The translations under genes and the position numbers were made by a program. This document shows positions 14,150-45,526 of a stretch of 46,001 bases of DNA, piece after piece; position 1 is the stretch's first letter; each line of letters opens with the position of its first letter. The notes beneath the pieces were generated by a model. It was not told the origin of the DNA. It was given only the letters and a program-made list of their open reading frames with translations, and did not search any database. The DNA comes from an uncultured Prevotellaceae bacterium (GTDB lineage Bacteria > Bacteroidota > Bacteroidia > Bacteroidales > Muribaculaceae), in assembly GCA_900318335.1 (NCBI GenBank), contig ONKF01000021.1, forward strand, positions 1 to 46,001, read 5' to 3'.

Positions 14150-16720
14150 ATGAATCGAAGAAGATTGACCCTGATAGCATTACTGGCGGCGATGGTCGCC
14201 AGTTTTGCCATGACGGCAGCCGATGTCATTCCCAAGCGTGAGCAGCGTGGCATGTGGATAACGGCATACCTCAGTGACTGGCCCAGTGGTGCCATCACCG
14301 AGCGCAATACACCCACGGTGCAGAATGCCTGCCGCAAGATGCTCGACACCCTGCGCGTGAACCACATCAATGCGGTTTATTACCACGTCAGGGCCATGTG
14401 TGACGCGATGTACAACTCGGCCTATGAGCCGTGGTCCAGCTACGTTTCGGGCGCCCGCGGAGTGGCTCCGGCGTTTGACCCCCTTGAGTACCTCGTTCAG
14501 GAGGCTCACAAGCGGGGCATCGAGGTCTATGCCTGGGTCAATCCCTATCGATACGGTCACGGCAGCAACTTGTGGGGTGAGAGCCCGCTTGACTATATCC
14601 ACACCCATCCCGAGTGGTTGTTGACCACGAGTTATGAGACGGTGCTCAATCCCGGCCTCCCCGAGGTGCGTCAACGAGTCGTGGATGTCTGCAAGGACAT
14701 TCTTGTGAAATATGATGTTGACGGACTGGTGTTCGATGACTATTTTTATAATCAGGACAATCCCTCGTTCACCCTTGATGCCGACCTGTATAATGCCTAC
14801 AAGGCTGATGGCGGCACAATGTCCCAGGGCGATTGGCGCCGCGAGAACGTCAACCAGATGGTCAAGGATGTCAACGACATGGTTAAGACGACCAAGCCAT
14901 GGGTGCGCTTCGGTATCGGCCCTGCTGGCGTGGCGTGCAGTTCACAGGCTGTCGCCGACCAGTATGGTGTGGAGCCCAGCCCCGGCTCCGACTGGCAGTA
15001 TAACCAGATTTACAGTGACCCGATGGCATGGCTCACGCGCGGAACGGTCGATTTCCTGGCTCCACAGGTCTATTGGAAGACCACGGGCACTTTTACGGGT
15101 GTGACAACATGGTGGGGCAAGATGGCTGCACGTTTCAACCGTCATGTCTATATCAGCCAGTGGGTTCCCGACGAGGAGGGCTGGACGCTGGACGAGTTTG
15201 TCAAGCAGGGTCATGTCATGCGTGAGGCAATGGCCGCAGGCGGTAATCCAGGCATGGTTTACTTCCGTTACGGCACTTGGCGCAACAAGAAAGAGATGAT
15301 TGATGGCCGGGTGCGCCAGTTGCGCACGTGGCTCAAGGACAGCCTCTATCCGACCATTGCCCTCAATCCCGCTCCCGCGTGGCTCAAACCCAGTCAGACC
15401 TATACCACGGTGACCAACCTGGATTATAGCGACGGCACGCTCTCGTGGGACAGCATCCCCAATGTGCGGTATGTCGTCTATACCATCCCCGATGGGGTGG
15501 AGGACCGTGACTTCCATTGTCAGGCATGCTATATCGATGGCGTGAGCTATTGGGCCAGTTACACCTTGCCTGCTGCCAAGCGCGAGGGCTACCGCTATGC
15601 CGTGACGATTCTTGATCGCTGGGAGAACGAGTATGCGCCTGTCATGCCTGGCGTGGAACCCACTCAGGCGGCCCAACCCGTGCTGCTCTATCCCGATGAT
15701 GGCGCCGAGGTGCCTGAATTGTCATTCCTGCAATGGAAGGGCGATGGGTCTAACTATGTCGTGCAGATTTATGCCGACGCGATGATGGACTCTCTCGTGG
15801 CTCAGGTAGAGGTGGACTCGATGAGTTGTCCGTTGCCCCGCATCCCGTGCCTCACTGCTGGCACCTACTGGTGGCGCGTGGTGGCGCGTGGCCTTAACCA
15901 GTGGGATAATGCCAGTGAGTTGCGCCAGTTCACAATAGGGCAGATGCTGATCACTTCTCCTGCCAGTGCTGCCGCGTCGGTGCCGTTAGAGCCGGTGATT
16001 GCTTGGACTGAAGGTGCTCCGGGCACGTCCTACTTGCTGGAATTGTCCATGGCCGCTAACATGAACAATCCTGACACTGTCGCCTTGAACGAGGCGCGAT
16101 GGCAGGTGCCCAAGTACTGGCTGTCGGGTGCTACAACCTATTATGCCCGTGTCACCGCCACCTATGGCGCTGCTACCATCACGACCCCGGTATCGTCGTT
16201 CACGACAGTTGAGGTCATTCCGCCCGTGCCTGTTTACTTGTGTCCTGCCGAGGGTGAAACAGTGCTTTACTCGACCGATGTTGTGCGCTTTGCTCCTGTC
16301 GAGGGCATCCAGTCGTTAAGGGTGCAGATCAGCAGCAGCGAGTCGTTCCCCACGCGCACAACCTACAACGGCACGCTCGAGAGAGGTACCTTTGAGACGC
16401 CGCAGTTGGGCAATATCAAGGGCACCGGTAAGTTGGTTGACGGAAAGACCTATTATGTGCGTGCACGTAATGCCTATCGCACGCTCGCGACGGGCAGTAA
16501 CATCCAGTATACCGACTACAGCGAAATCCGTTCGTTTGTCTATCACGAAGCCATCCAGGGTGACGTGAATGGCGACAGTGAGGTAAACATCGCCGACATC
16601 AATGCGCTCATCGACATTATCCTTACTGGGGGCAGTGGTGATGCCCGCTCGGATGTCAATGGTGACGGTGAGGTGAACATTGCAGATGTCAATGCGGTGA
16701 TTGATCTCATCCTTCAATAA
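14150..16720 (+). CDS. GH10-like (DUF187/DigH-type) glycoside hydrolase with dockerin-like tail
   Basis: An 856-residue secreted protein. A signal peptide (1-24) is followed by the GHL10 catalytic barrel at about 30-400 (EQRGMWITAYLSDWPSG, AWVNPYR, DGLVFDDYFYN, VDFLAPQVYWK). Characterised relatives such as E. coli DigH cleave peptidoglycan glycan strands stripped of peptides. Three Fn3-like beta domains span about 405-800. Residues 804-856 form two dockerin-like repeats (GDVNGDSEVNIADINALID and SDVNGDGEVNIADVNAVID), each with a D-x-N-x-D calcium loop. The Fn3 plus dockerin-like extension is absent from DigH itself. It probably acts outside the cell or in the periplasm on a GlcNAc-containing polymer. 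Confidence 0.85.
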   Translation: MNRRRLTLIALLAAMVASFAMTAADVIPKREQRGMWITAYLSDWPSGAITERNTPTVQNACRKMLDTLRVNHINAVYYHVRAMCDAMYNSAYEPWSSYVSGARGVAPAFDPLEYLVQEAHKRGIEVYAWVNPYRYGHGSNLWGESPLDYIHTHPEWLLTTSYETVLNPGLPEVRQRVVDVCKDILVKYDVDGLVFDDYFYNQDNPSFTLDADLYNAYKADGGTMSQGDWRRENVNQMVKDVNDMVKTTKPWVRFGIGPAGVACSSQAVADQYGVEPSPGSDWQYNQIYSDPMAWLTRGTVDFLAPQVYWKTTGTFTGVTTWWGKMAARFNRHVYISQWVPDEEGWTLDEFVKQGHVMREAMAAGGNPGMVYFRYGTWRNKKEMIDGRVRQLRTWLKDSLYPTIALNPAPAWLKPSQTYTTVTNLDYSDGTLSWDSIPNVRYVVYTIPDGVEDRDFHCQACYIDGVSYWASYTLPAAKREGYRYAVTILDRWENEYAPVMPGVEPTQAAQPVLLYPDDGAEVPELSFLQWKGDGSNYVVQIYADAMMDSLVAQVEVDSMSCPLPRIPCLTAGTYWWRVVARGLNQWDNASELRQFTIGQMLITSPASAAASVPLEPVIAWTEGAPGTSYLLELSMAANMNNPDTVALNEARWQVPKYWLSGATTYYARVTATYGAATITTPVSSFTTVEVIPPVPVYLCPAEGETVLYSTDVVRFAPVEGIQSLRVQISSSESFPTRTTYNGTLERGTFETPQLGNIKGTGKLVDGKTYYVRARNAYRTLATGSNIQYTDYSEIRSFVYHEAIQGDVNGDSEVNIADINALIDIILTGGSGDARSDVNGDGEVNIADVNAVIDLILQ

Positions 16721-16736
16721 CGTTAAAGAGTTGTAA

Positions 16737-18164: not shown

Positions 18165-18179
18165 AAATCAGAAAAGATT

Positions 18180-18256: not shown

Positions 18257-19645
18257 ATGAAGAAATTATTACTCCTGCTACTTGTTTTGGCATCTGCTGT
18301 TGCCAGCGCTTGGGCAACAACCGATGGCGTGAAGTATGAACCGGTTAACGATATCAACATCGTGAACCTCTGGATCCAGGATCGCGCCCACACCCCCGAG
18401 GTGTGGGGCAGTCAGCCCTATTGCAACACCTATGCCCGCACAGCGGTGATGCACGACGGCTTCATCTACATCGCCCGCTCTAACGCTAACACGGTGATTA
18501 TGGGTACCGACACCCTGTTGCAGAGTGTGGTTTACAAGCTGGATGCCGCCAATGGCCATCTGGTGAAGGAACTGCCGTTGACTCTGGACGGGGCCATCTA
18601 TGGTGGCGCTGTATTGAGCAGCAACACGGTGGGCGTGGATAACTTCGGCCACCTGTTTATCGCTCCTTATACCAGTGAACTGGCCACCGTGTCACCCATC
18701 TATCTGCTTGACGGCGAGACGGGTGAACTTGAACTGGTGGCAGAACTCGAGAAGGGCGATGTGCTGGCACGTTGCGACTACATGGACGTGATGGGTGACT
18801 TGACCCGCGAGGAAGCCGAGTGTAACATCATGACCGTGGGCACAAGTTCGGAGGTCATCTACCGCTGGCATGCCGACCAGGGTAGTGACTTTGAGGGCGG
18901 ATTTGAGGGAGACCCCTATCTGGCCATTCTGGACTTTTATCCCGAGACGGTGACCCAGTGGGGTTATGGACCTGTCGTGAAGATGATTCTGGGCGAGGAC
19001 GAGGATACCCGCTACAGTGGCGAACTGTTCTACGTCGACGGTTTCACCACTTCACCCATCCTCTATGACGTGACGGGTACCAAGGTGGATGATTTTGAGA
19101 ACGTGGATCCTGCCCTCTGGCCGATGGATGTGGGCGCCAATGGTGTGTGTGAGTTCACCCTTGAAGGCCGCAACTTCATTACCTATGTGGCTGCTCAGTA
19201 CACCGGTGTTGACGAGGCCACTATGGTCAACAAGGCCTGCCAGAGCTACATCTGTGAGTTGGGCGAGGGCATGACACTCGGGGGTATGCAGCGTTACTGG
19301 ATGGTCCCCGACGAGCTGGGCGCCATGAGTGATGGCGGCACGCGCGTGCAGAGCATGAACGTCGAGTACGGCACCGACAGCGAGGGCAACGAGGAAGTGA
19401 CCCTGTTCATCTTCAAGTGCTATAACGGCATGGCCGTTTACAAGATTGGCAAGAATGTGAGTGGCGGTGAGGAGCCTGGCGTGCCCGGTGATGTGAACGG
19501 TGACGGCGAGGTGAGCATTGCCGACGTCAATGCCGTTATTGATATGATCCTGAACGGCAACCCGAGCATGAATGGTGACGTCAACGGCGACGGCGAGGTA
19601 GGTATTGCCGACGTTAATGCCGTTATCGACTTGATCTTGAACTAA
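18257..19645 (+). CDS. Secreted protein of unrecognised family with dockerin-like tail, paralogue 1
   Basis: A 462-residue protein with a signal peptide (1-20, MKKLLLLLLVLASAVASAWA). The main domain (about 22-405) has recurring beta motifs (ARTAVMHDGFIYIARSN, DNFGHLFIAPYTS, YLLDGETGELELVAELEKG, YNGMAVYKIG) that suggest a beta-propeller. I recognise no family and see no catalytic signature. Residues 411-462 are two dockerin-like repeats (GDVNGDGEVSIADVNAVID, GDVNGDGEVGIADVNAVID). The neighbour at 19767 is a paralogue of the same length. Location between a surface kinase-like protein and a phosphodiester glycosidase suggests binding or structural duty in the same glycan system. Confidence 0.75.
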   Translation: MKKLLLLLLVLASAVASAWATTDGVKYEPVNDINIVNLWIQDRAHTPEVWGSQPYCNTYARTAVMHDGFIYIARSNANTVIMGTDTLLQSVVYKLDAANGHLVKELPLTLDGAIYGGAVLSSNTVGVDNFGHLFIAPYTSELATVSPIYLLDGETGELELVAELEKGDVLARCDYMDVMGDLTREEAECNIMTVGTSSEVIYRWHADQGSDFEGGFEGDPYLAILDFYPETVTQWGYGPVVKMILGEDEDTRYSGELFYVDGFTTSPILYDVTGTKVDDFENVDPALWPMDVGANGVCEFTLEGRNFITYVAAQYTGVDEATMVNKACQSYICELGEGMTLGGMQRYWMVPDELGAMSDGGTRVQSMNVEYGTDSEGNEEVTLFIFKCYNGMAVYKIGKNVSGGEEPGVPGDVNGDGEVSIADVNAVIDMILNGNPSMNGDVNGDGEVGIADVNAVIDLILN

Positions 19646-19766: not shown

Positions 19767-21155
19767 ATGAAAAAATCAGTACTTCTCCTTATGTTTGTGC
19801 TCACCGCCGCAATCAATGCGCTGGCGGTGACCGATGGCCAGACCTATGCTGAGGTCAATGGCATCAAGATTGCCAACCAGTGGATATTTGACCGCGTTCA
19901 CTGTGGCACGGATTATACCGACAACGTTATCTGCAGCCAGCGTGCCCGCACGGCGACGATGGACCAGGGTATCATCTATGTGGCCCGCAGCGAGGAACTC
20001 CCCGTGATTATCGGTACCGATACCATTGCCCAATCGGTTATCCACCGCTTCTCGGCTGCCGACGGTCACCAACTCCCCGACCTGCCCTTGACGCTTGATG
20101 GCGCCCCCTATGGCCGTTTCCTGGGCGTGGCCAGCATCGGTAAGGACAGTTTCCACCACATCTGGGTGGCTCCCATGACAAGCACGGTTCAGCAGTATGT
20201 GCCTGTCTATCTGGTAGATACCGAAACTGGCGAACTCACCCTGGTTGTTGAAATGGACAAGGGTGATGCTCCGCAGCGTACCGACTACCTTGATGTTATC
20301 GGGGACCTGAAGCTTGAGCAGGCCGAGTGCAACATCATGACGGTGTCTGGTTCGACGGCCGATCCCGGATTCCCGACCCTGTACCGCATGCATGCCGACC
20401 AGGGCGGCGAGTGGGAAGGCGGCTTTGAGGGTGACCCATATATGGACATCATCAATTTCTACCCCGAGACCAAGACCGGCTTCTCGCTGGCTCCTGTCAT
20501 CAAGATGATCGAGGGTCCTGACGAGGAATCGCGTTACAGTGGTGGAATGTTCTATATCGACTGCTTTGACACAGCGCCTGTAATTTATGACTTCTCGGGT
20601 TCGGTCATCGACTCCTTTGAGGATACAGACCCCGCCTTGTGGCCTCAGTCCCAGCCCAACGGTTGCATCGAGTTCCAACTCGAGGGCCGCAATTTCCTGG
20701 TATATGTTAACGCCGACATGAACGGCAACGGTCACGGTTGTCAGGCCAACATCTGTGAGTTGGGCGAGGGCCAGTCTTTGGGTGGTATGACCAAGTACTG
20801 GAAGATTCCCGCCGACAGCCTTGGCAAGGTCAACGACAGCGGTCTGCGTGTACATTGCTTTGCTGTGGAGTATGGCATTGATAGCGAGGGCTACGAGGAA
20901 GTGACCCTGTTCACTTTCAAGGCCTACAATGGCATGGCTGTTTACAAGATTGGCCGCAACGTGAGCGGTGCAGGGCCCCAGCCCGGCGTGCCTGGTGACG
21001 TGAACGGCGACGGCGAGGTGAGCATCGCCGATGTCAATGCCGTGATCGACATGATTCTGTCAGGCATTCAAGATCAATCCGGTGATGTGAATGGAGATGG
21101 CGAGGTGGGCATTGCCGATGTCAACTCGCTCATCGATATGATTTTGCAAGGATGA
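19767..21155 (+). CDS. Secreted protein of unrecognised family with dockerin-like tail, paralogue 2
   Basis: A 462-residue protein. I chose the ATG at 19767, which gives a clean signal peptide (MKKSVLLLMFVLTAAINALA); an in-frame ATG at 19659 would add 36 residues with no sense and overlap the hairpin. It aligns end to end with paralogue 1: shared blocks include ARTATM, WHADQG/MHADQG, DPALWP, LEGRNF, ICELGEG, EYGxDSEGxEEVTLF and YNGMAVYKIG. Residues 410-462 are two dockerin-like repeats. No catalytic motif. Its stop overlaps the next start by 4 bp (ATGA), coupling it to the phosphodiester glycosidase. Confidence 0.78.
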   Translation: MKKSVLLLMFVLTAAINALAVTDGQTYAEVNGIKIANQWIFDRVHCGTDYTDNVICSQRARTATMDQGIIYVARSEELPVIIGTDTIAQSVIHRFSAADGHQLPDLPLTLDGAPYGRFLGVASIGKDSFHHIWVAPMTSTVQQYVPVYLVDTETGELTLVVEMDKGDAPQRTDYLDVIGDLKLEQAECNIMTVSGSTADPGFPTLYRMHADQGGEWEGGFEGDPYMDIINFYPETKTGFSLAPVIKMIEGPDEESRYSGGMFYIDCFDTAPVIYDFSGSVIDSFEDTDPALWPQSQPNGCIEFQLEGRNFLVYVNADMNGNGHGCQANICELGEGQSLGGMTKYWKIPADSLGKVNDSGLRVHCFAVEYGIDSEGYEEVTLFTFKAYNGMAVYKIGRNVSGAGPQPGVPGDVNGDGEVSIADVNAVIDMILSGIQDQSGDVNGDGEVGIADVNSLIDMILQG

Positions 21156-23524
21156 GAAAGCAGTCTATCCTACTGGCGCTTGCCGCGATACTGATGGGCA
21201 CGGTCACGGGTTCTGCCCGTGACCAGTGGACCATCGGTGACAAGGCTTATGATGTGGACACGCTCATTTTCCCGCATCTGGTGGGGCCTGGTGTGACAGC
21301 AGCCAAGTTTGACATCCCGGCCTTGCCGCTCAAGGTGAGTGTGACCGAGATGGACCTCACCAACCCCTATATTGTGATGGAGACCTGCTTGGGCGGCGAG
21401 AAATCGGTAGCCTGTGAGACACCCGTCAACATGGCAATACGCAACACGCGGCCCGGTCATGAGGTGGTGGCTGCCGTCAATGGTGACTTCTTTATGACTT
21501 CTCCCACCAACGAGGTGGGATTGCCGCTCAGCGGGCAGGTGCGTGACGGTGAGCTGGTGCTCAGCAGCCACAACCGCGCTTGCCTCGTTCTTGACGAGGG
21601 CAAGCATCCCTTTATGGACCGATTGACCTTTACGGGTCAGGTAACGAGTGGCAGCACTTCGTTCCCGCTTAATCTGGTGAACCGAATGCGCTATGCCTAC
21701 GAGAACATTGCCGCCAACCAGTCCATCCTCTTTACCCGCAGTTATGGCCCAGTGACCTATGACGGCTCCACTTCGGGCAAGATGATTGTCCTGAAACCTA
21801 CTGGCGAACCCTTCCGCTGGGCAGCCAATGGCGCTGAGCAATGCGTTATCGAGGCTATCGTTGACGCCCAGGGCTCGATGGCGATTCCTGACGGCAAAGC
21901 CATTCTGTGGCTCAAGGGCACCTATGCCAACTATGCTGAGTCCTTGCACGAGGGCGACCCGATGACCGTCAGTTTCAGGCTCACGCTCAACAATGGCCCC
22001 CAGGACATCCAGATGGATCAACTCATCGGCGGCAGTAACCACATCATCATGCAGAATGGCCAGTTCATGGAGGATTGGGCCGAACGCCATCCCCGTACCG
22101 CCATCGGTTTCAATGCCGACAGCACACGGCTCTACTTTGTCGTAGTGGATGGCCGCCATCTCACCTCGACGGGTGTCACACTGCGCGAGATGATGGGCAT
22201 CTTTGAGGCCCTCGGTGCCGTCAATGCCGTGAACCTGGACGGCGGCGGCTCATCGTGCATGGTCGTCAATGACGAGGTCATCAACCACCCCAGCGACGGC
22301 TCGGTGCGGGCTGTGGGCAACGGTTGCCTGCTGGTGTCCATCGCTCCCGAGGACGAAGCCATCGGCATCATCAACTATGAGCCCAGGTGCTACAATCTGT
22401 CGATATCGGCAACCACCAGATTTGGTGTCTGGGGCTATAATCAGTATGGCGTCCTCAAGACGCGTGACCTGCAGGGCTGCACCTTCTCGTGCGACCCGTG
22501 GGTGGGCAGCTTTGACGAGCAAGGCTATTTCCATGCTGTTTCAACGCCTGCGTCGGGTAACCTCTATGTGACCTACAACGGTATCACCGCCAGTCAATCG
22601 GTCACCATTATGGAGGCACAGTGGCTACTGGTGAGCGACAGCGTGGTTATCGACAGGTTTCACCCCTATGCCATCAACATCAATGGCGTGAGCGGTTACG
22701 GGTTGGACAAGGTGGACCCTTCGGTCGTGGATTGGACTTCGGCCGATGAGGGGGTCTGTACCGTGGATCAGCAGGGTATTATCACCGCTGTTGCCGACGG
22801 TCAGACCTTTGTGGGCAGTTCCAATCCACTGTTGCTTGATTCCATCATGGTCAACGTCGAGAATCCCAAGGCACGCATCACTACGGTTGAGAATGCCCCC
22901 ATCGACCCCACAACCTGGCAGATCACCCAGAGCGGAGGCAAGGACCGTGTGATTACAGCGCTGGATAACGGCATGCAGATTGATTTCACGGGTTCCTCGT
23001 CGCGCAACCCCTATATCAAGATTTCCAAGTCAATGAGAATCTGGGGCGTGCCCGATAGCCTGCGCCTGCGCATGGAGCCAGGAGACTTGCAGCTCAAGAC
23101 GGTCAAGATTCTGCTCGAGAATGCCTATGGTGGACGCGTCACAGTCGAGTATCCCGTTACGGCTGCTGACGGCAAAATCACCCTCGACATCCCCGTGACC
23201 GACATCTGCGAGGCCGCCGACCTCGGCAATTTCCCGCTCCACTTGCTCTATTACTACATCACCTACGAGCCGGTGACGGTAGGCTCGCCTTATTCACTTA
23301 AAATCCCGGGTATAGAACTCGTCTATGCCAATATGCCTCAAGATGAGCCGCAACCCGTGGTGGGTGACGTCAACGGCGACGGTGAGGTCGGCATTGCCGA
23401 TGTCAATGCCATTATCGATCTCATCCTCATGGGTGGGGGCTATCAGTCATCTGCCGATGTCAACAAGGACCACGAGGTGAACATCGCTGATGTCAATGCC
23501 GTCATCAATCTCATCCTCGGGTGA
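21152..23524 (+). CDS. NAGPA-type phosphodiester glycosidase with dockerin-like tail
   Basis: A 790-residue secreted protein with signal peptide 1-22. The phosphodiester glycosidase (NAGPA) domain spans about 95-405. VVAAVNGDFFMTSPTNEVGLP, RTAIGFNADSTRLYFVVVDGR and VNLDGGGSSCMVVNDEVIN are its typical blocks. The mammalian namesake removes GlcNAc from GlcNAc-1-phospho-mannose; bacterial homologues are thought to cleave phosphodiester-linked sugars. Beta-sandwich regions follow (about 410-735), with a Big2-like segment (TADEGVCTVDQQGIITAVADGQ). Residues 738-790 are two dockerin-like repeats. Translationally coupled to paralogue 2. It points to a substrate with sugar-phosphate links, e.g. teichoic acid or phosphorylated glycan; that is inference. 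Confidence 0.85.
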   Translation: MRKQSILLALAAILMGTVTGSARDQWTIGDKAYDVDTLIFPHLVGPGVTAAKFDIPALPLKVSVTEMDLTNPYIVMETCLGGEKSVACETPVNMAIRNTRPGHEVVAAVNGDFFMTSPTNEVGLPLSGQVRDGELVLSSHNRACLVLDEGKHPFMDRLTFTGQVTSGSTSFPLNLVNRMRYAYENIAANQSILFTRSYGPVTYDGSTSGKMIVLKPTGEPFRWAANGAEQCVIEAIVDAQGSMAIPDGKAILWLKGTYANYAESLHEGDPMTVSFRLTLNNGPQDIQMDQLIGGSNHIIMQNGQFMEDWAERHPRTAIGFNADSTRLYFVVVDGRHLTSTGVTLREMMGIFEALGAVNAVNLDGGGSSCMVVNDEVINHPSDGSVRAVGNGCLLVSIAPEDEAIGIINYEPRCYNLSISATTRFGVWGYNQYGVLKTRDLQGCTFSCDPWVGSFDEQGYFHAVSTPASGNLYVTYNGITASQSVTIMEAQWLLVSDSVVIDRFHPYAININGVSGYGLDKVDPSVVDWTSADEGVCTVDQQGIITAVADGQTFVGSSNPLLLDSIMVNVENPKARITTVENAPIDPTTWQITQSGGKDRVITALDNGMQIDFTGSSSRNPYIKISKSMRIWGVPDSLRLRMEPGDLQLKTVKILLENAYGGRVTVEYPVTAADGKITLDIPVTDICEAADLGNFPLHLLYYYITYEPVTVGSPYSLKIPGIELVYANMPQDEPQPVVGDVNGDGEVGIADVNAIIDLILMGGGYQSSADVNKDHEVNIADVNAVINLILG

Positions 23525-24457: not shown

Positions 24458-27037
24458 ATGAAGCGATTTTTATCTTTCCTGATCATTACTGTGGCTGTGG
24501 CATGCGCGATGCAAGCGAGCCAAGTTACCGTGTCTGAAGCCCGCCAAGTGGCAGGCCAGTTTTTAAAGGCAAAATCTACGCGGTTATCGGCCCCGGCAGG
24601 CCATGCAACAATGAGTCTTGCTTATACTGCCGAAGCCGGGCGCTTCTACATTTTTAACCGTGGCGAGGCTGGCGGCTATGTCATTGTCGCCGGCGATGAC
24701 AGGTTACCGCAGGTGCTGGGTTACAGCCTGTCGGGGACATTCACACCTGGCAATATTCCTCCTGGCATGCAGGATTGGATGGCTGAGATGAACCGTGAGA
24801 TTGCCTATCTGGAAGCGCACAAGGACACTCCTGTGCATCAGCCCGTCAAGAGAGAGACTACGGTGCCGCCATTGATGACCACACTGTGGAATCAGGAATG
24901 GCCCTACAATCTGTATTGTCCCACTTACACGGTAGGAAGCGGTGAACCCATGCGTGCCGTTACGGGTTGTATAGCCACAGCGATGGCCCAAATCATGAAC
25001 TACCATCAGTGGCCGGAGCGTGGCACGGGTAGCCATTCCTACCAATGCAATGTGAACGGTACCGACCCGACTACGCTTAGCGCCGATTTCAGTCAATCGG
25101 TTTATGAGTGGGACAAGATGTTGGACACCTATGACCAAAACAGCAGTGAAGAGTCTTGTGCTGCTGTCGCAAGGCTGATGAGCGATTGCGGTATCTCTGT
25201 TGACATGAGTTACGGCAATTCGAGTGGCGCGTCAGAAACAGATGTGCTCACTGCCCTGTCCCGTTACTTCGGTTATAGTGGCAAGCAGTATCTGCTCCAG
25301 CGCGACTTGTTTGGCGCAGCCGAGTGGGACCAGTTGCTGGTTGACGAACTCAGTGCCCAGCGTCCGGTGCTCTATTGCGGATATGCCTACTCGCAAGGCT
25401 CATTGGGTGGCCATGCATTTGTGTTTGATGGATATGATGGCGATGGCTATTTCCATGTCAATTGGGGATGGGGCGGACACTATGACAACTATTTCCTGGT
25501 GTCAGTATTGGCTCCCTCTTCAGATTCTAATTTCAAATATGGTCAAGATGCCATCTTCGGTATCGCTCCGCCTGCAGTAGCCGCCGATGTGCCAGATGTG
25601 CTGTATATCCGTGGCCTGATGCAACCCGACATGTACAGTGTGCCTCGTGGTGAAATAGCAAAAGTGAAGTTTTCTGAAGTTTATGTGCAAGGCAATCTGG
25701 TGGATACTGTCGGTTATGATAATATGGGATACTGGTCGATACCTTACGATACCATCCCCATGGAACTGCGTGTCATCGACCAGGATGGCATTAACCGGCA
25801 GTCATATCGGTTCACTTATAAAGTGCTCATCGACAGTTGGTGGTCAAGGGAACCGAGTATCGATTTCATTCCCGACGAGTCTCTTGCCGATGGTGAGTAC
25901 AAGATTAAAGTTGTCTACTCGACCCATAAGGACGGCAACTATGATTCATGGGTCTGTGATGATTACGGGAATGACGCATATTGCGACATGCTCCTGAAGG
26001 ATGGCATGGTTTATATGTCGGATTGCACTTTGGCCTCAAAGTATTTCCTTATATCCATGACTCCCGATCAAAGCATCTTTGCCAACGAGTCCTTTGATGT
26101 TGATGTGACACTCAGTTATCCTCAGGGATATGGTCCAGCTCCCGCACCGACCACTGGAAATGTGCACCTGTCATTGATGAAGGACGGACACGAAGTAGCT
26201 ACCAGTGACCCGCTGACCATCTCGTTGGCTTACGGCACTTCAGCGACTTATACATTACAGATGATGGCGCCTGCCGAGTGGGGACGTTACCGGTTGATGC
26301 TGGTGGATGAAAGTGGCAGGAGGTTTTCGCCCGATGTCGACTGGATAGAGGCGACTGGCGAAGAAGGTATCATGAATATCATTGTGGTGCCCAAGAGTGA
26401 CGAACTCGTCGAGGACTTTGAGACGATGACGGCCAACAGCAGCACGAGTGACAAGAATGTGCAGGGCCGCTTCACCTCATGGAGCTTCAATAAGAGCGGT
26501 GTGCGTGCGCCCGGAGAAGGCAAGTGCTACGGCACCAATTCGGTGATGATGAAGAAACCGAGCACGTTCTATAGTGTAGAGCCTGTCAGCCATCATATCT
26601 TTATGGCTGCTGCGACATTCTTCAACAACTCGTCGACGGATGCGAAATTCACCTTGGAATTTTCTCTGGACAATGCGGAAACTTGGGTGAAAGCCCTTAC
26701 TATTGACGATACTGATGCCGCTATAGTTCCTGCCACAAGCGCTACTCAAGTCATCTGGCAACTCAACCTGTCACAGCGTGACCAGGTGTTGTTCCGCATT
26801 GCCATGACTGGTGGTGGATCGGCTGCGGCCTATGTCGATGACTTTATCCTGCGATACAAGGATTCGTCCGTTGCTGGTGATGCCAATTTTGACGGGGAAG
26901 TCAATATTGCCGATGTGAACGCCATCATCGATATGGTTATTAACGATATCGTCAATCTTGATGCCGACGTCAATGGTGACGGAGAGATAAATATCGCCGA
27001 CGTGAATGCCGTTATCGATATCATCCTGGGGTCTTAA
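24458..27037 (+). CDS. C10 (SpeB/streptopain-like) cysteine protease 1 with dockerin-like tail
   Basis: An 859-residue secreted protease precursor. Signal peptide 1-20; Spi-inhibitor-like propeptide about 21-140 (ARQVAGQFLKAKS, FYIFNRGEAGGYVIVAGDDRLPQVLGYS); peptidase C10 domain about 145-375. The catalytic cysteine is Cys171 in TGCIATAMAQ, the catalytic histidine is His319 in GGHAFVFDGYDG, and the HVNWGWGG loop follows. The oxyanion Gln lies in LWNQEWPYN. Beta-sandwich domains fill 376-640 and a jelly-roll-like segment 645-790 (VEDFETM to DDFILRY). Residues 807-859 are two dockerin-like repeats of the IADVNAIID class, the same class as in the glycan locus upstream. The active-site set is complete, so it should be active after propeptide removal. 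Confidence 0.92.
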   Translation: MKRFLSFLIITVAVACAMQASQVTVSEARQVAGQFLKAKSTRLSAPAGHATMSLAYTAEAGRFYIFNRGEAGGYVIVAGDDRLPQVLGYSLSGTFTPGNIPPGMQDWMAEMNREIAYLEAHKDTPVHQPVKRETTVPPLMTTLWNQEWPYNLYCPTYTVGSGEPMRAVTGCIATAMAQIMNYHQWPERGTGSHSYQCNVNGTDPTTLSADFSQSVYEWDKMLDTYDQNSSEESCAAVARLMSDCGISVDMSYGNSSGASETDVLTALSRYFGYSGKQYLLQRDLFGAAEWDQLLVDELSAQRPVLYCGYAYSQGSLGGHAFVFDGYDGDGYFHVNWGWGGHYDNYFLVSVLAPSSDSNFKYGQDAIFGIAPPAVAADVPDVLYIRGLMQPDMYSVPRGEIAKVKFSEVYVQGNLVDTVGYDNMGYWSIPYDTIPMELRVIDQDGINRQSYRFTYKVLIDSWWSREPSIDFIPDESLADGEYKIKVVYSTHKDGNYDSWVCDDYGNDAYCDMLLKDGMVYMSDCTLASKYFLISMTPDQSIFANESFDVDVTLSYPQGYGPAPAPTTGNVHLSLMKDGHEVATSDPLTISLAYGTSATYTLQMMAPAEWGRYRLMLVDESGRRFSPDVDWIEATGEEGIMNIIVVPKSDELVEDFETMTANSSTSDKNVQGRFTSWSFNKSGVRAPGEGKCYGTNSVMMKKPSTFYSVEPVSHHIFMAAATFFNNSSTDAKFTLEFSLDNAETWVKALTIDDTDAAIVPATSATQVIWQLNLSQRDQVLFRIAMTGGGSAAAYVDDFILRYKDSSVAGDANFDGEVNIADVNAIIDMVINDIVNLDADVNGDGEINIADVNAVIDIILGS

Positions 27038-34249: not shown

Positions 34250-36649
34250 ATGAAAAAAATTCTCGTATTAATTGCTATCGTGTTTGCAGCTATGCAACTC
34301 ACGGCAGCCAATGTTGACCTTGTTTCTGCTCAGCAGTCCGCACAACGTTTCCTGATGAGCCAGACCGCCAAGGGTCGCTTCATGACCTCGGCCCCCACAG
34401 TTAAGTGGACCCATGAGGTGAAAAACTCAAGCAATGCCGCTCTGGCAGCTTATTACATCGTCAACACCGAATGTGGCTATGTCATTGTATCTGGTGACGA
34501 CCGCGCCAAGACAGTCCTCGCCTATGGTGATGGCTCACTGTCCAGCCTTAACGACCTTCCCGAGGCAGTACAATACTTCCTCGACATCTATCAGAAGCAG
34601 ATGGAATACCTCCAGGCTCATCCTGGACTGGTCGTGAAGAAAATCGCCAATACCCGTGGCGTTTCTGTTGAACCCCTGCTGCAAACCGCTTGGGCTCAGG
34701 ATAAGCCTTATAACAAGCAGTGCCCCAAGGTGGGTTCCACTTATTGCAAGGTGGGCTGCACCGCAGTGGCTCTGGCTCAAGTGATGAGGTTCTGGGAATA
34801 TCCCACTACGTCACCTGCGCTGCCCGCTTACAAGTGTGAGGATTCAGGCATTAATGTGTCAGCATTACCCGAATACACCTTTGATTGGGATAATATGTAT
34901 GACACCTACTATGGAGTGGATCTTGACCGACTGCCCCAGGTGAATGAGGATGCTATCGCTTACCTGATGCGTTATGTGGGTCAGGCTGAGCATGTGGACT
35001 ATAATACCGACAAGACAGGTACCAGAAATCCTGAGATTCTTACCGCAATCAATACTTTCGGCTTTGACGAGGGCGCAAGCATCGTGAAGAAGTGTGACTC
35101 TCCTGATACTCAAGAAGAACTCAGCCAGGGTGCATATACCGAAGAAGAGTATTACAATGATGAAGAATGGGCTGAAGCAATTCAGGCTGAGTTGCGTGCC
35201 GGCCGTCCACTGATTTATTGTGCTTATGACATGTCGTCTGACTCGACCGGCCTGGGTGGCCATGCCTTCAATGTTGACGGCTATAATGCTGAGACCGACA
35301 TGTATCACGTTAACTTCGGAATGAATCCGTCGTTGAACACCTATTATGCACTCAATGCATTCTCAACTGATGGTTGGATGATCGTTTACGACTTCTGGCC
35401 CATCTTCTTCGGTGGCGTTCAGCCTCCTGGCTTATCGACCGATCCCCGCATCTTGGTTAGCACTCAGGACGTGTCAATGGAATGCTATGCTGGAGAAACC
35501 GCTACCGACACCATCACTGTCAATGGTCAATATCTGACCGAGGGCATCAGTGTGGCTCTCAACGACGAGAACGATGTCTTCTCTATCAATGTTACCTCTA
35601 TCGCTCTTGAAGATGCCGGTAATGCCTCCATTGTTGTGACCTATGCACCCCAGGCCGTAGGTACCCACACTGCCACTATTACCCTGAGCAGTGAGGGCGC
35701 TGCCGACAAGGTGGTTCACCTCGTGGGCACTGCTACCAGCGCACCTCTTGTAGTCTATGATCCCGTGATGCTCCCCGCCGATGAGAGCAAGATCACTGCC
35801 ACCTCGTTCCGCGCCGACTGGACTGACCAGACTGTGCCTGAGAATGTTGCCAGCTACACCCTCGAAGTGAAGGAGAAGCCAGGTGCTGGTGGCGTGCTTG
35901 TTGATGTGGATTGGAGCACAGCATCGGGCAATGCCGAAGATTATCTGCCTGAGGGTTGGACCGTAGGTGATTATTCTATCTTCTTTGATGAAGGCGGTAT
36001 CGCAATCACAAGTGATAGCTACATTAAGACTGATGTCCTTGACCTCGCTGGTTGTGATAAGGTTACCATTGTCATGAGGGCAAAGAACTACTCTCCCTGG
36101 TTCAATTCCACCATCACGGTGAAGACCAGCATTGATCAGAAGTATTTGGAACTGACCTCGGATTATACCGATTACACCATTGTCTTGAATTGCGCTGAAA
36201 ATGATCAGGTTGAGTTCTTCGCTAACGCTTATTACCCCACAATTCAGGCCATCAAGATTTATGCTGGTGAAGTTACCGCTCCGCAGATGCGTGCTACCGA
36301 GGAGGGCGATGCTTCATCGCGCATTATCACGGGTATCACCGATAAGTTCTACACCGTCAACGACCTCACCGCCAATGGCACTTTCCGCTACAAGGTGAAG
36401 GCTGTCTACAACGATGGCACCGAGAGCGCTTGGAGTAATGTTGAGGAGGTAACCCTGGTGGGTCATGCTTATTCCATCGGCGACGTTAACCACGATGGTA
36501 ATGTGAACATTACCGATGTTACCGCTCTGATTGACTACCTGCTGGGTGATATTACCGCAGCGCCTGCCGAGGCCGACGTCAATGGCGAGGGTGGTGTGAC
36601 CATCACCGACATGACCGCTCTTATCGACTTGCTGCTCGGCAGTAATTAA
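34250..36649 (+). CDS. C10 cysteine protease 3 with dockerin-like tail
   Basis: A 799-residue secreted protease precursor. Signal peptide 1-20; Spi-like propeptide to about 135 (AAYYIVNTECGYVIVSGDDRAKTVLAYG); C10 domain about 140-390 with Cys170 in VGCTAVALAQ and His338 in GGHAFNVDGYNA. The following loop reads HVNFGMN instead of the usual HVNWGW, so both active-site tryptophans are lost while the Asn remains. An Ig-like domain (about 400-500, ILVSTQDVSMECYAGETATD) and an Fn3 pair with a jelly-roll insert (505-740, FRADWTDQTVPENVASYTLEV) follow. The dockerin-like pair is 744-799; its second loop is altered (DVNGEGGV, Glu for Asp). Monocistronic: own promoter and terminator. Confidence 0.92.
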   Translation: MKKILVLIAIVFAAMQLTAANVDLVSAQQSAQRFLMSQTAKGRFMTSAPTVKWTHEVKNSSNAALAAYYIVNTECGYVIVSGDDRAKTVLAYGDGSLSSLNDLPEAVQYFLDIYQKQMEYLQAHPGLVVKKIANTRGVSVEPLLQTAWAQDKPYNKQCPKVGSTYCKVGCTAVALAQVMRFWEYPTTSPALPAYKCEDSGINVSALPEYTFDWDNMYDTYYGVDLDRLPQVNEDAIAYLMRYVGQAEHVDYNTDKTGTRNPEILTAINTFGFDEGASIVKKCDSPDTQEELSQGAYTEEEYYNDEEWAEAIQAELRAGRPLIYCAYDMSSDSTGLGGHAFNVDGYNAETDMYHVNFGMNPSLNTYYALNAFSTDGWMIVYDFWPIFFGGVQPPGLSTDPRILVSTQDVSMECYAGETATDTITVNGQYLTEGISVALNDENDVFSINVTSIALEDAGNASIVVTYAPQAVGTHTATITLSSEGAADKVVHLVGTATSAPLVVYDPVMLPADESKITATSFRADWTDQTVPENVASYTLEVKEKPGAGGVLVDVDWSTASGNAEDYLPEGWTVGDYSIFFDEGGIAITSDSYIKTDVLDLAGCDKVTIVMRAKNYSPWFNSTITVKTSIDQKYLELTSDYTDYTIVLNCAENDQVEFFANAYYPTIQAIKIYAGEVTAPQMRATEEGDASSRIITGITDKFYTVNDLTANGTFRYKVKAVYNDGTESAWSNVEEVTLVGHAYSIGDVNHDGNVNITDVTALIDYLLGDITAAPAEADVNGEGGVTITDMTALIDLLLGSN

Positions 36650-36803: not shown

Positions 36804-36889
36804 CATAATTTTTTGAGTAGGAGTCTATGAGAAAAATGCTAACCATTAACTATCAATCATTTAACCTCATTATTATTTGTAATATTCAC

Positions 36890-39265
36890 ATGAAGAGGAT
36901 ACTTTTTTTAGCAGCATCGCTTGTGATGGCTGTCATGTGCGTCTCGGCAGCCGATGTGGACTTGGCGATGGCTCAGGCCGCGGCCCAGCGTTTTGTTGAT
37001 AACAATGCCGCAGGAAAGCGCTTTTCGGGACGGCCGGCGGGCAATCTCAGGCTATTGCATGCCGAGTCCAATTCAGTCAGTGCCGGAAAAAATGTCTATT
37101 ACATCTTTAACACTGACAACAGTTTTGTCATTGTGGCTGGTGATGACCGTGCTCAGCAGATTCTTGCCCATGGCGAGCGTCCCCTGGACATGAGCCAAAT
37201 GCCCGAGAACATGAAAAACTGGCTTACCACCTACAAGCGCCAGATAGAATTCCTGCAGTCCCACCCCGATGTGCAAGTCGATGCTCCCGCGCGGGGAACG
37301 CTCAGGAGCATCCCCACGGTCGCCCCCTTGCTCACTGCCGAGTGGGACCAGATAGACCCTTACTGGAACCATTGTCCGGTTTATAACGGGGAGTATTGCT
37401 TGACAGGATGTCCTGCCACCTCGCTCTCGATGGTGTTCTACTACTGGAAGTATCCCAAGGATCCCACTCCCGAGGTGGAGAGTTATATCAACCTGGGTAC
37501 CGGTGGCCGCTTGCCGGCGCTTCCCTCGATAACATTTGACTGGGACAATATGCTCGATAAGTATGAAGGCGTGGATTATACCGAGGCCCAGGCCGATGCT
37601 GTAGCTTGGCTCATGCGCTATATTGGCCAAGTAGAGCACATGGATTACACCCCTGAGGGTAGTGGCGCACAAGGCACCGACATCTTGAGGGCTGTCAAAT
37701 TCTTTGGCTACGACGAAGAGGCTAAACTGTTGACCAAGTCGTTTGCCGATAACTTCGGCAACGAGATTGAGCAATACTTCAGTGATGAGGAATGGGCCGA
37801 TATACTCCAAAAGGAGCTCTACGAGGGTCGTCCTGTAGTGTATTGCGCCTTTGATTACAATAACGAGCGTGGCTGGAGTGGCCATGCGTTCAATGTCGAT
37901 GGTTATGATGCTGTTGACAACACCTATCACGTCAACTTTGGTTGGAGCGGCATCGGCAACGGCGACTATGTGTTGAATGCTTTTTCATACAGGGATTATA
38001 CCTTCAATATCGAACAGCAGATGATTACGGGCATTCAGCCACCCATCATTGAACCCACAATCAGGGTCAATGCTTACCAGTTGAATCTGCAGTCCTATGT
38101 GGACCAGACTGCCACGGCATCGATATTGGTCAGGGGTAAGGAACTCCAGAATGACATTACGATTACTGTCAATGATGAAAACGGGGTGTTCTCGATTGAT
38201 GAAACCCAGGTCAGTGTCGCTGATGCCGACTCGGGCAAATTGGTCACAATAACCTATGCTCCGCTGGCCAGTGGCCATCACAGCGCTACCATTGTGCTCA
38301 GCAGTCCTGATGCCGACGATGTGACGGTATCGCTCAATGGCGAAGCCTCTCTTGAGACTTTCAGGCCCGTGATGCTGGCCCCTGTCGAGGAGTTTATCGG
38401 CCTGACGCAATTCCGTGCCGACTGGAGTGACGTGACCCTGGATAAGTATGTGACCAGCTATGACCTTGAGGTGAATACCAAGCCCGGTCTCGCGCTTGTC
38501 GGTGAAACCGACTGGAGCGGTAACACCGAGATTCCTGGCAATTTTGCCGACTATCCTGGTGACCTGCTGCCCGAGGGATGGACATTTACGGGTACCGGCC
38601 TGTGGTATGAGGATGGCGGAGTATCGATAAATAACAGGAGCACATTTATCACACCGCCCTATGATATCGCTGGCTACGAGAAGATGACCATAGTGGTGAA
38701 TGCCAAATCATCCATGACCTATAGCAATTCCAAGTTTGCTGTTTCGACCAGTATTGACAGCATAGAGTTTACTGCCACTGGAGGCACGCCGATTACCGAA
38801 TATGTTGCCGTGCTCAATTGCAACGAATTGGAGCAAGTGAAAATTGCTGGCAAGAGTGGCTTCCCCGTGTTCGAGAGCATCAAGGTCTATGCTGGAGAGT
38901 TTGATGATTCCCTGTTGCGTGCTGCCCACGAAGAGGGTGGCGCCAACTCGCGCTACGTCACAGGTATTACCGGCAAGCACTACACGGTTACCGACCTCAC
39001 GCCCGGTGGTATGTTCTACTACAGGGTCAAGGCCTACTATATTGATGGCACCTGCAGCGCTTGGAGCAAGAGTAAGAATGTGACCCTGCGTGAGAATGGT
39101 CATGCCTTTGAGTTGGGCGACGTGGACCATGACGGCAAAGTGACGATTACTGATGTCACCGTTTTGATTGACTACCTGCTGGGAAGCCAGGAAGATGCTT
39201 GTCTTATCTGTGCAGATGTCGATCTTGACGGCATAGTAACGATTACTGATGTCACCGAATTGTGA
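36890..39265 (+). CDS. C10 cysteine protease 4 with truncated dockerin-like tail
   Basis: A 791-residue secreted protease precursor. I chose the ATG at 36890 because it begins a proper signal peptide (MKRILFLAASLVMAVMCVSA); an in-frame ATG at 36827 would place 21 residues before it. Spi-like propeptide to about 140; C10 domain about 145-390 with Cys174 in TGCPATSLSM and His332 in SGHAFNVDGYDA, then HVNFGWSG. Ig-like and Fn3/jelly-roll domains follow as in proteases 3 and 5. Residues 743-791 hold one full dockerin-like repeat and a second that stops after TDVTEL, lacking its last helix. The DNA for this tail is nearly identical to that of protease 5. Confidence 0.92.
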   Translation: MKRILFLAASLVMAVMCVSAADVDLAMAQAAAQRFVDNNAAGKRFSGRPAGNLRLLHAESNSVSAGKNVYYIFNTDNSFVIVAGDDRAQQILAHGERPLDMSQMPENMKNWLTTYKRQIEFLQSHPDVQVDAPARGTLRSIPTVAPLLTAEWDQIDPYWNHCPVYNGEYCLTGCPATSLSMVFYYWKYPKDPTPEVESYINLGTGGRLPALPSITFDWDNMLDKYEGVDYTEAQADAVAWLMRYIGQVEHMDYTPEGSGAQGTDILRAVKFFGYDEEAKLLTKSFADNFGNEIEQYFSDEEWADILQKELYEGRPVVYCAFDYNNERGWSGHAFNVDGYDAVDNTYHVNFGWSGIGNGDYVLNAFSYRDYTFNIEQQMITGIQPPIIEPTIRVNAYQLNLQSYVDQTATASILVRGKELQNDITITVNDENGVFSIDETQVSVADADSGKLVTITYAPLASGHHSATIVLSSPDADDVTVSLNGEASLETFRPVMLAPVEEFIGLTQFRADWSDVTLDKYVTSYDLEVNTKPGLALVGETDWSGNTEIPGNFADYPGDLLPEGWTFTGTGLWYEDGGVSINNRSTFITPPYDIAGYEKMTIVVNAKSSMTYSNSKFAVSTSIDSIEFTATGGTPITEYVAVLNCNELEQVKIAGKSGFPVFESIKVYAGEFDDSLLRAAHEEGGANSRYVTGITGKHYTVTDLTPGGMFYYRVKAYYIDGTCSAWSKSKNVTLRENGHAFELGDVDHDGKVTITDVTVLIDYLLGSQEDACLICADVDLDGIVTITDVTEL
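39122..39262 (+). repeat. 141-bp near-identical segment, copy in protease 4
   Basis: Matches 45371-45511 at 137 of 141 positions. The last 99 bp (39164-39262) are identical, although the genes differ clearly upstream. It encodes the dockerin-like tail, and this copy ends at the stop codon. Probably the product of gene conversion. Confidence 0.9.
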
Positions 39266-43117: not shown

Positions 43118-43171
43118 TTACGTGTCAAACAAGATGATTATTATTCATTATCAACCTAATAACAAATTGTC

Positions 43172-45526
43172 ATGAAGAGATTTTTGTTTTTAACTGCCCT
43201 TGTCGTTGCGGCTATGCAAATGATGGGCGCCAATGTGGACCTGGCGACGGCCAAGGCAACCGCACAACAGTATGCTGCCAGCAAGATGGCTAATGGTAAG
43301 TTGATGGCTCCGTCGGCTATTGACATGAAACTGGTCAAACAGGAAATGAATTCCGACAAGCCTGGTACGGCGGTGTACTACATTTTCAACACTGCCGATC
43401 ACTTCATCATCATTTCGGGTGATGACCGCGCAAGAACCGTGCTCGCCTATGGTGACCGCTCCATCAAGGATATTAACAGCATGCCCGCCAACATGAAGTA
43501 CTGGCTTGGTGTTTATAAGAAGGAACTGGAGTACTTGCAGGCACATCCCGAGATTGCCGCCGATCAGTCGCTCAATGCAGGCGGCACCAGGGGTGTCAGC
43601 GTGGAGCCGCTGCTCACCGCCATGTGGGATCAGCAGGAGCCATACTACAACCACTGCCCGGTGTATAACGGCCAGTTGTGTGTCACCGGCTGCCCCGCCA
43701 CATCGCTGGCGATGGTGTTCTACTACTGGAAATTCCCCGTTGGCCCAGTTCCCGCAGTGAGTGGCTATAACAACTACAGCTATGGCTTCCAGGTCGAGCC
43801 CTTGCCCGGAACGACTTTTGACTGGGATAACATGATTGACGATTACACCCATGGCTATACCGAGGCACAAGCCGATGCCGTGGCATGGCTCATGCGCTAC
43901 ATCGGCCAGGAGGAGCAGATGGACTACACGCCTCAGGGCAGTGGTGCCTATGGTAGTGACATACTGCGTGCCGTCAAGTTCTTCGGTTACAACAACGAGA
44001 TGGCTGAGATCTACTACAAGTACTCCTATAACAATAACATGTGGGCTGCCATGATACAGGAGGAACTGGTGAACAACCGCCCCATCGTGTACTGTGCTTA
44101 TGACAGCTATGCAGGTGGTCATGCCTTCAATGTTGACGGCTATGACGCTAATGACGACACCTACCACATCAACTGGGGCTGGAGCGGCGACTACAACTGC
44201 TACTGTGCTTTGAACGCCTTCAGTGACGGCGAGTACAACTTCACCAACGACCAGCAGATGGTCATCGGTATTCAGCCGCCTTATTTGGGCCCGACCATTA
44301 CTGCCAGCGCCTTGAATATGGCCATCGAGTCCTATGCCGAGAAGTCGGCCACCCAGGTACTCTCTGTCTTCGGCTACTACCTCGACCATGACGTGACCGT
44401 TACCCTCGACGACCCCAATGGAGTCTTCTCGATTGACGTTAACCATATCGCCTTGAGCGAGGTCGAGAGTGGCAAGGACATCACCATCACTTATGCTCCC
44501 CAGGAGGTAGGCACCCACAACGCTACCATCACCCTGAGCAGCGAGAATGCCGAGGACGTAGTCGTCAGCATCGTGGGCACCTCAGTGTTTGAGAAGCACG
44601 ACCCCGTGATGCTTGAGGCCAATGAGGACTTCATTAAGCTCACCGAGTTCCGTGCCGACTGGACCGACGAGACCCCCGACAAGAATGTCGAGAGCTACAC
44701 CCTCGAAGTAGCCACCAAGCCCATCACCGCTCTCCTGGGCGAGACCGACTGGAGCGACCTCACTTACAGCAGTTCCAGTGTGATTTCTCACTGGCAGGAC
44801 TACTTCCCTGAGGGTTGGACCTATGATGGCCGCCAGCTGTTCACAGGCAATGGTTACCTTCAGTTAGGTTCTGGCGGTGGCATCATCACGCCGCAATATG
44901 ACCTGACGGGCTACGAGAAAGTAACCGTCGTCCTGCGAGCATCGGGTTACAATACCTGGCGCACTGCCGGCGTGACGGTTTCTACCAGTCTCCAGTCAGA
45001 ACACGTGGATTTGACACCTGGTAATTTTGCCGACTATATCTTTGTGCTGGATTGCACCGAGAGTGAGCAGATCACTATCCGTGGTGACTATTACCCCAAT
45101 GATTATGGCCAGATCGAGAGCATCAAGGTTTATGCCGGCGATGCCAGCGAGCCTTCGAAGCTCAGGGCCGTGAACGAGGAAGGCGATGCTACCTATCGTC
45201 TTATCACAGGCATCACTCCCGACAAGTTCTACACGGTTAAGAATCTGACTGCCGGTGGCACCTTCTTCTTCCGCGTGAAGGCCCACTACACCGACGATAC
45301 CTGGAGCAACTGGAGCAAGGCTAAGACAGTTGTCCTCGCTGGTGAAGGCCACGGTTACACGATAGGTGATGTGGACCATGACGGCAAAGTGACAATTACT
45401 GATGTTACCATGTTGATTGACTACCTGCTGGGAAGCCAGGAAGATGCTTGTCTTATCTGTGCAGATGTCGATCTTGACGGCATAGTAACGATTACTGATG
45501 TCACCGAATTGGGCGGAGGCAATTAA
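43172..45526 (+). CDS. C10 cysteine protease 5 with truncated dockerin-like tail
   Basis: A 784-residue secreted protease precursor. Signal peptide 1-19 (MKRFLFLTALVVAAMQMMG); Spi-like propeptide to about 135 (AVYYIFNTADHFIIISGDDRARTVLAYG); C10 domain about 140-380 with Cys174 in TGCPATSLAM and His317 in GGHAFNVDGYDA, then HINWGWSG. The Ig-like and Fn3/jelly-roll domains match those of protease 4. Residues 732-784 hold one complete dockerin-like repeat and a second that ends TDVTELGGGN, without the final helix. The tail is nearly identical at DNA level to that of protease 4. It follows the secreted repeat protein with no promoter between. Confidence 0.93.
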   Translation: MKRFLFLTALVVAAMQMMGANVDLATAKATAQQYAASKMANGKLMAPSAIDMKLVKQEMNSDKPGTAVYYIFNTADHFIIISGDDRARTVLAYGDRSIKDINSMPANMKYWLGVYKKELEYLQAHPEIAADQSLNAGGTRGVSVEPLLTAMWDQQEPYYNHCPVYNGQLCVTGCPATSLAMVFYYWKFPVGPVPAVSGYNNYSYGFQVEPLPGTTFDWDNMIDDYTHGYTEAQADAVAWLMRYIGQEEQMDYTPQGSGAYGSDILRAVKFFGYNNEMAEIYYKYSYNNNMWAAMIQEELVNNRPIVYCAYDSYAGGHAFNVDGYDANDDTYHINWGWSGDYNCYCALNAFSDGEYNFTNDQQMVIGIQPPYLGPTITASALNMAIESYAEKSATQVLSVFGYYLDHDVTVTLDDPNGVFSIDVNHIALSEVESGKDITITYAPQEVGTHNATITLSSENAEDVVVSIVGTSVFEKHDPVMLEANEDFIKLTEFRADWTDETPDKNVESYTLEVATKPITALLGETDWSDLTYSSSSVISHWQDYFPEGWTYDGRQLFTGNGYLQLGSGGGIITPQYDLTGYEKVTVVLRASGYNTWRTAGVTVSTSLQSEHVDLTPGNFADYIFVLDCTESEQITIRGDYYPNDYGQIESIKVYAGDASEPSKLRAVNEEGDATYRLITGITPDKFYTVKNLTAGGTFFFRVKAHYTDDTWSNWSKAKTVVLAGEGHGYTIGDVDHDGKVTITDVTMLIDYLLGSQEDACLICADVDLDGIVTITDVTELGGGN
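45371..45511 (+). repeat. 141-bp near-identical segment, copy in protease 5
   Basis: Partner of 39122-39262, with four mismatches, all in the first 42 bp. Downstream of the segment the two genes diverge at once: here GGCGGAGGCAAT precedes the stop. Confidence 0.9.

Follow-up and report, generated by a model that had tools for sequence, protein, structure and literature searches.

Paired dockerin tails and divergent cohesins suggest a cellulosome-like surface assembly in a genus of Muribaculaceae

Nine dockerin-tailed proteins at one locus

We analyzed a 46,001-nucleotide stretch of DNA (the window; contig ONKF01000021.1 of assembly GCA_900318335.1, positions 1 to 46,001) from an uncultured Prevotellaceae bacterium that GTDB places in the Muribaculaceae, in which nine genes encode proteins ending in paired dockerin repeats. 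It corresponds to contig C59 in a 3.15-Mb draft genome (G000; assembly 92.9% complete). An initial annotation, made from the letters alone, had described nine proteins with paired dockerin-like tails and had seen no cohesin in the window, and both observations held. A calcium-loop motif, composed after the tails had been seen, matched exactly twice near the C terminus of each protein (9/9) and in none of the 16 other open reading frames (ORFs) of the window; 1,000 shuffles gave 0.018 matches per nine-protein set. Pfam Dockerin_1 (PF00404) matched at all nine tail places, and there was no match to cohesin family PF00963 or to our cohesin profiles A1 and A2 anywhere on C59.

The identities proposed for the GHL10 protein and the five C10 proteases were borne out by PF02638 and PF01640 matches (Table 1). 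Both of the 462-residue paralogues described are present, the second having that length only with a start at ATG 19767; the dockerin was the sole Pfam family in either paralogue at E ≤ 0.01. The description of two calcium-loop repeats in all nine proteins held, with one correction: the second-repeat helix is shortened in C10 proteases 4 and 5 (36827 to 39265 and 43172 to 45526). In these two tails (39113 to 39265 and 45365 to 45526), repeat 2 retains the calcium loop and breaks off after ...ITDVTEL, with loss of the final helix. A single intact half may be enough if either repeat binds.

Two further genes in this region encode proteins without a dockerin. A 475-amino-acid (aa) protein with a lipobox-like start (16737 to 18164) lies amid the run of dockerin genes. 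A 601-aa protein among the C10 proteases (41312 to 43117) has a signal-peptide-like start and, by pattern, a tail like those of the type IX secretion system (T9SS); it had no match at E ≤ 0.1 in Pfam or NCBIfam.

TABLE 1 Dockerin-tailed genes of the window and their tails (aa, amino acids; pLDDT, predicted local distance difference test)
Feature	Position	Strand	Evidence or remark
GHL10 protein, C-terminal dockerin pair	14150..16720	+	PF02638 E 5.5e-53; PF00404 E 8.3e-8
GHL10 dockerin tail, N class	16559..16711	+	PF00404 38.6 bits
462-aa paralogue 1	18257..19645	+	Only dockerin at Pfam E ≤ 0.01
Paralogue 1 dockerin tail, N class	19484..19636	+	PF00404 31.4 bits; AlphaFold model pLDDT 95
462-aa paralogue 2	19767..21155	+	Listed ORF begins at GTG 19659
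Paralogue 2 dockerin tail, N class	20991..21146	+	PF00404 40.2 bits
790-aa protein	21152..23524	+	"Phosphodiester glycosidase" in the initial annotation; name unconfirmed
790-aa protein's dockerin tail, N class	23363..23518	+	PF00404 34.3 bits
C10 protease 1	24458..27037	+	PF01640 E 1.3e-69; PF13734 E 6e-24
C10 protease 1 dockerin tail, N class	26873..27025	+	PF00404 24.1 bits
C10 protease 2	27365..28705	+	PF01640 E 4.1e-55
C10 protease 2 dockerin tail, repeat 1 T type, repeat 2 unclassified	28529..28693	+	PF00404 39.1 bits
C10 protease 3	34250..36649	+	PF01640 E 6.7e-42
C10 protease 3 dockerin tail, T class	36479..36637	+	PF00404 48.5 bits
C10 protease 4	36827..39265	+	PF01640 match at 37343-37963
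C10 protease 4 dockerin tail, T class; stop codon truncates second helix	39113..39262	+	PF00404 41.9 bits
C10 protease 5	43172..45526	+	PF01640 match at 43625-44203
C10 protease 5 dockerin tail, T class; GGGN-stop instead of second helix	45365..45511	+	PF00404 42.3 bits

Dockerins and their cargo across the genome

The tails are type I dockerins, as their likeness had suggested. Type I dockerins (PF00404) consist of two calcium-binding F-hand repeats of the form D1-x-[ND]3-x-D5...D12, and both repeats were present in 137/148 tails. D1 and D12 were near-invariant, both residues having had weight in finding the repeats. PF00404 matched 141/145 proteins at E ≤ 0.001, dockerins of the PDB matched the tails at E 5.5e-12, and the AlphaFold model of one tail (paralogue 1) contains two helices.

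Nine is the number in the window and not in the genome, where at least 152 PF00404 matches gave at least 147 frames with a dockerin, 145 of them usable; these are lower bounds, from 150 of 235 PF00404 candidates scored. The dockerin was C-terminal in 118 of the 145 proteins, directly behind the signal peptide in 12 (e.g., C54:21424 and C67:125423), and internal in 13; one protein was a short fragment and one had its end cut. By a crude home-made rule, 138/145 begin with a signal-peptide-like sequence, and nearly all dockerin proteins of this genome are apparently exported. Anchoring as lipoproteins was rejected: a lipobox-like motif occurred in 6 of the 138, none of them convincing by eye.

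Cargo was counted from 25 of 53 and 25 of 56 families in the two halves of the set. LRR_5 (leucine-rich repeat [LRR]) led with 28 proteins, followed by C10 protease (22), Spi propeptide (21), and CotH (9), with subtilase, M6 peptidase, and CBM26 at 6 each, alpha-amylase at 5, endonuclease I at 4 or more, and GHL10 at 3 or more; GH53, amylase, and GHL10 proteins were few. Many of the dockerin-bearing proteins are proteases or adhesin-like, and many others fall outside all of these families. The genome had 24 C10 matches, compared with 0 to 12 in the other 58 sampled genomes of the family.

Cohesins and candidate anchors

The initial annotation had called for a genome-wide search for cohesin folds, which proved to be the right test: the genome encodes seven cohesin domains in six proteins, all off C59. 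Two of the domains scored above the curated cut-off of PF00963; of the other five, two were spotted by eye and three were found with profile A1. The domains have the cohesin beta-sandwich fold. Profile A2 added no further cohesin, its seven matches being its own training rows, and two weak partial matches on C42 (A1 E 6e-4 and 0.01; A2 E 0.007 and 0.005) were left uncounted.

With SP for signal peptide, COH for cohesin, DOC for dockerin, and CTD for a T9SS-type C-terminal domain assigned by pattern, the layouts are SP-LRR-Big2-COH-DOC-COH-CTD, SP-COH-DOC, SP-LRR-COH-DOC, SP-LRR-DOC-COH-CTD (two proteins), and SP-COH-CTD. The partner of the tails is most likely a divergent cohesin from another part of this genome; the undescribed partner first envisaged was too narrow a proposal, as the partner need not be of a new kind.

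A genome-specific recognition code

Ruminococcal and clostridial dockerins carry recognition residues at about positions 10 to 12 of each repeat, according to the excerpt of PMC5301203 available to us. Among 285 repeats of our genome, position 10 was isoleucine in 261. At positions 17 and 18, where ruminococcal and clostridial dockerins have further recognition residues, our repeats showed I17 in 261 and D18 in 250. The congeners, read from their best-scoring tails, had other residues: Y17 in 40/40 repeats of G303, 34/34 of G378, and 16/16 of G283 (the last with G or A at position 10); V10-S11-I17-N18 in 10/10 repeats of G365; and G10, I17, and N18 in 11/12 repeats each of G338. The recognition positions were thus near-uniform within a genome and different between congeners.

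The terminal dockerins of cohesin proteins carried the code of their own genome in 8/8 comparable cases (two each in G000, G378, and G338 and one each in G303 and G283). A second type comprises ten dockerins of the large anchor proteins, placed within or next to the cohesins. It is alike across seven congeners and our genome and mostly has V10, and 8/10 of its members carry A17 in their first repeat. A single code for all dockerins was accordingly rejected on recheck, the ten anchor-internal dockerins deviating and the terminal ones conforming. Second-type dockerins occur in COH-DOC-COH anchors on C55 of our genome (L027) and in congeners (L155 to L162). Since the enzyme code varies between congeners while the anchor-internal type stays constant, plain drift is argued against.

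These codes bear on whether the tails instead dock onto the cohesins of other rumen bacteria in a cross-species assembly, the genome's own cohesins serving only the few proteins that bear them. Ruminococci have large cohesin sets (PMC5301203 and PMC6118326, in the parts seen), and the named relatives of one of our cohesin proteins are metagenome-assembled genomes from the ruminant gut. We regard this as highly improbable, given that the enzyme code recurs on the terminal dockerins of the genome's own cohesin proteins and that congeners have six-cohesin scaffoldins of their own (see below).

The two repeats of a tail also resemble each other. In 137 paired tails, repeat 1 and repeat 2 agreed more often than under shuffled pairing; the effect was clearest at positions 7, 9, 11, 14, and 20 and absent at positions 2, 4, 6, 8, and 13. 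The tails fell into a T14/L20 class (80), an N14/I20 class (43), and an unclassified remainder (14), with 0 mixed tails versus 55.9 expected. Adjoining genes shared a tail class in 34/40 pairs, against a shuffled mean of 21.6. Tails spreading as units would give unmixed classes as well, yet not the free variation at other positions.

Dockerins in place of T9SS tails on C10 proteases

SprA was found in 20/20 genomes tested, including the T9SS translocon gene of our genome. Two dockerin proteins resembling subtilisin-type proteases (L089; contig C35, 13586 to 15864) are encoded just upstream of sprA on the same strand. Outside the genus, 27 C10 loci were fetched, and all 21 that reach a stop codon have a T9SS-like tail by eye. 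PF18962, an insensitive profile here (6 matches in our genome at E ≤ 1, 1 of them above the cut-off), was present on at least 17 C10 frames outside the genus versus 0/33 genus rows among the matches listed. In our genome, 18/19 listed C10 frames carry a dockerin and the 19th carries a degenerate one; the single C10 protein of G261 followed to its end has a dockerin. In the C10 proteases, the T9SS tail of sister genera has been replaced by a dockerin in this genus. No CTD match (profile A4, E < 0.01) was found on any of the 118 proteins with a C-terminal dockerin, the nine window proteins included. A strong genus-wide loss of T9SS tails was rejected, as the difference in CTD counts between the genus and its relatives is weak, and tail replacement is therefore claimed for C10 proteases alone.

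The exchange of tails, the presence of SprA, and the missing CTDs would also be expected if the dockerin were itself a sorting signal that the T9SS reads instead of a CTD, with cohesins unrelated to export. This seems very unlikely to us: a C-terminal signal could not work in the 12 proteins with a dockerin behind the signal peptide or the 13 with an internal one, and the code differs between congeners despite SprA in all genomes tested.

Distribution in the genus, family, and order

The family survey covered 149 genomes, 10 of the same genus and 139 others. All 10 genomes of the genus had at least 40 dockerin matches each (from 93 to 232 candidates) and 3 to 16 cohesin matches. Among the 139 others, more than 4 dockerins were found only in G247 (31) and G285 (9). 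Across the order, dockerins exceeded the cut-off in 84/247 genomes, 14 of which had 10 or more matches. In 60 genomes hand-chosen from these 247, cohesins were present in 12/14 dockerin-rich, 16/26 intermediate, and 4/20 dockerin-free genomes. Dockerin and cohesin occurred together in 23/139 family genomes outside the genus (Fisher P = 1e-7, uncorrected for kinship), a co-occurrence that is partly trivial in that one protein can hold both. In the genus, G303 and G378 each have a 919-aa protein that combines six cohesins with a terminal dockerin; its gene adjoins that of a DOC-COH-CTD protein. A 5,621-aa frame in G196 has at least 8 cohesin matches among those listed.

A proposed cellulosome-like assembly and the evidence against it

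We think it probable that the tails plug exported proteins into the genome's own divergent cohesins, forming a cellulosome-like surface assembly in which LRR proteins and C10 proteases head the cargo. For binding, anchoring, stoichiometry, and the export route, we infer the following. Dockerin proteins would be exported and would then bind cohesin with calcium through either repeat of the symmetric tail, as the recognition code and the tail symmetry indirectly suggest. The T9SS would place CTD-bearing cohesin proteins on the surface, where these would retain enzymes; COH-DOC proteins would act as adaptors that enlarge the network; and the second dockerin type would connect anchors to a different cohesin. 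Gathering glycan enzymes and proteases at the cell surface, as suggested earlier, is the likeliest job for the tails.

Several observations weigh against this assembly. The ratio of cohesins to dockerins is poor (seven versus ~147), and no protein of our genome, in an assembly of the completeness given above, has more than two cohesins. TIGR04183 reaches 8/10 cohesin anchors and exceeds its cut-off in 1/10; of the four anchors of our genome with a CTD-like end, it matches only the one on C32 (E 0.044). CTD counts are only slightly lower in the genus (median of 12.5 in 10 genomes versus 17 in 32 outside; one-sided P = 0.03). The congener code was read from best-scoring tails. It is less uniform where sampling is thin, with A, A, V, and T at position 10 in two G261 tails and N or T at position 18 in two G352 tails, and congener LRR-DOC-COH-CTD proteins match the code only in part. 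One C10 protease (L051; G000 C30:76276-77990) has a degenerate dockerin-like tail in which the helices are kept and the calcium loops lost. G247, with its 31 dockerins, had no cohesin match, nor did the dockerin-rich G075 and G179; gaps in the assemblies or a partner that has diverged further may account for these three genomes, each with 10 or more dockerin matches.

The few cohesins, the two window tails with a shortened second helix, the lost loops of L051, and G247 would all suit a calcium-stabilized end cap, a tail that protects against proteases or aids folding and has no specific partner, with cohesins incidental in a few LRR proteins. We consider such a cap unlikely. Stability does not account for residues at positions 10, 17, and 18 that hardly vary inside one genome yet differ from congener to congener while anchor-internal dockerins are constant; it explains neither the unmixed tail classes nor the co-occurrence with cohesins in the order. 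The secretion or stability module that the initial annotation had offered as its alternative is likewise a poor fit with the recognition code, the unmixed classes, and the dockerins behind signal peptides.

A fuller version of the docking assembly is possible, and we offer it tentatively. Many proteins may have had an individual T9SS tail swapped for the dockerin code while a few cohesin carriers kept theirs. Docking to these carriers, possibly already in the periplasm, would bring enzymes to the surface or keep them there, with folded complexes crossing the T9SS pore as passengers. The species-specific code would keep enzymes off the scaffolds of neighbors, and the conserved second type would tie the anchors together.

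Comparison with known systems and significance

The system shares several features with clostridial and ruminococcal cellulosomes: the cohesin fold, enzyme ends with paired F-hand dockerins of two-fold symmetry, cohesin-dockerin proteins of adaptor type, and anchors bearing a dockerin of a second type. In two congeners, the likeness extends to a scaffoldin of six cohesins that carries a dockerin itself. The system differs in that the host is an outer-membrane bacterium and several cohesin proteins have T9SS-type tails, whose counterparts in cellulosomes are S-layer or sortase anchors. One code is common to scaffoldin and enzyme dockerins here, LRR proteins and C10 proteases lead the cargo, and our genome has at most two cohesins per protein. 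We describe its working as cellulosome-like and do not file it as a cellulosome because scaffoldin, cargo, and anchor in this genome give no clear answer for or against that class.

Ruminococcus albus and Ruminococcus bromii likewise combine large dockerin sets with very few cohesins and are thought to keep enzymes at the surface or in small complexes (PMC6118326, in the part seen); phylum, secretion system, and cargo differ here, and the system is genus-wide with genome-specific codes. T9SS cargo with a CTD (TIGR04183/PF18962) in sister genera shares the C10 family and the C-terminal place of the tail. In this genus, that tail is a dockerin, with CTD-like ends kept on some proteins, including cohesin carriers.

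Rumen Bacteroidetes bins with dockerins or cohesins are on record, as far as the excerpts of PMC6071333, PMC7260996, PMC7480376, and PMC5830445 available to us extend. They include Bin136 with 5 dockerins and 1 tandem cohesin gene, Bin129 with 2 cohesins (both PMC6071333), and RUG606 with a two-cohesin protein (PMC5830445). Like our genome, these are rumen Bacteroidetes carrying dockerins. They differ in having at most 11 dockerins among the rows listed, mostly without cohesin and with no defined role (PMC7480376 leaves the role of Bacteroidetes dockerins undefined), and no code, anchor, or genus-wide system appears in those excerpts. In the parts seen, PMC5831590 notes absent cohesins and dockerins as "consistent with other Bacteroidetes," and PMC7260996 asks whether Bacteroidetes cohesins are absent or too distant for recognition. 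A literature search by title and start of abstract, which did not cover bioRxiv or most subscription papers, found no cohesin-dockerin assembly in Bacteroidota among the entries listed. Dockerins of rumen Bacteroidetes and a few Bacteroidetes cohesins were known; a genus-wide system with a code, anchors, and a link to the T9SS did not appear in that search.

For this genus, the evidence favors cohesins too distant for recognition over absent ones. Cohesin genes are now named, and binding is therefore directly testable. If the assembly exists, outer-membrane bacteria would join the carriers of surface docking assemblies, such assemblies would also serve protein breakdown, the export of dockerin enzymes without a T9SS tail would become a question, and natural genome-specific cohesin-dockerin pairs would be usable for building enzyme assemblies.
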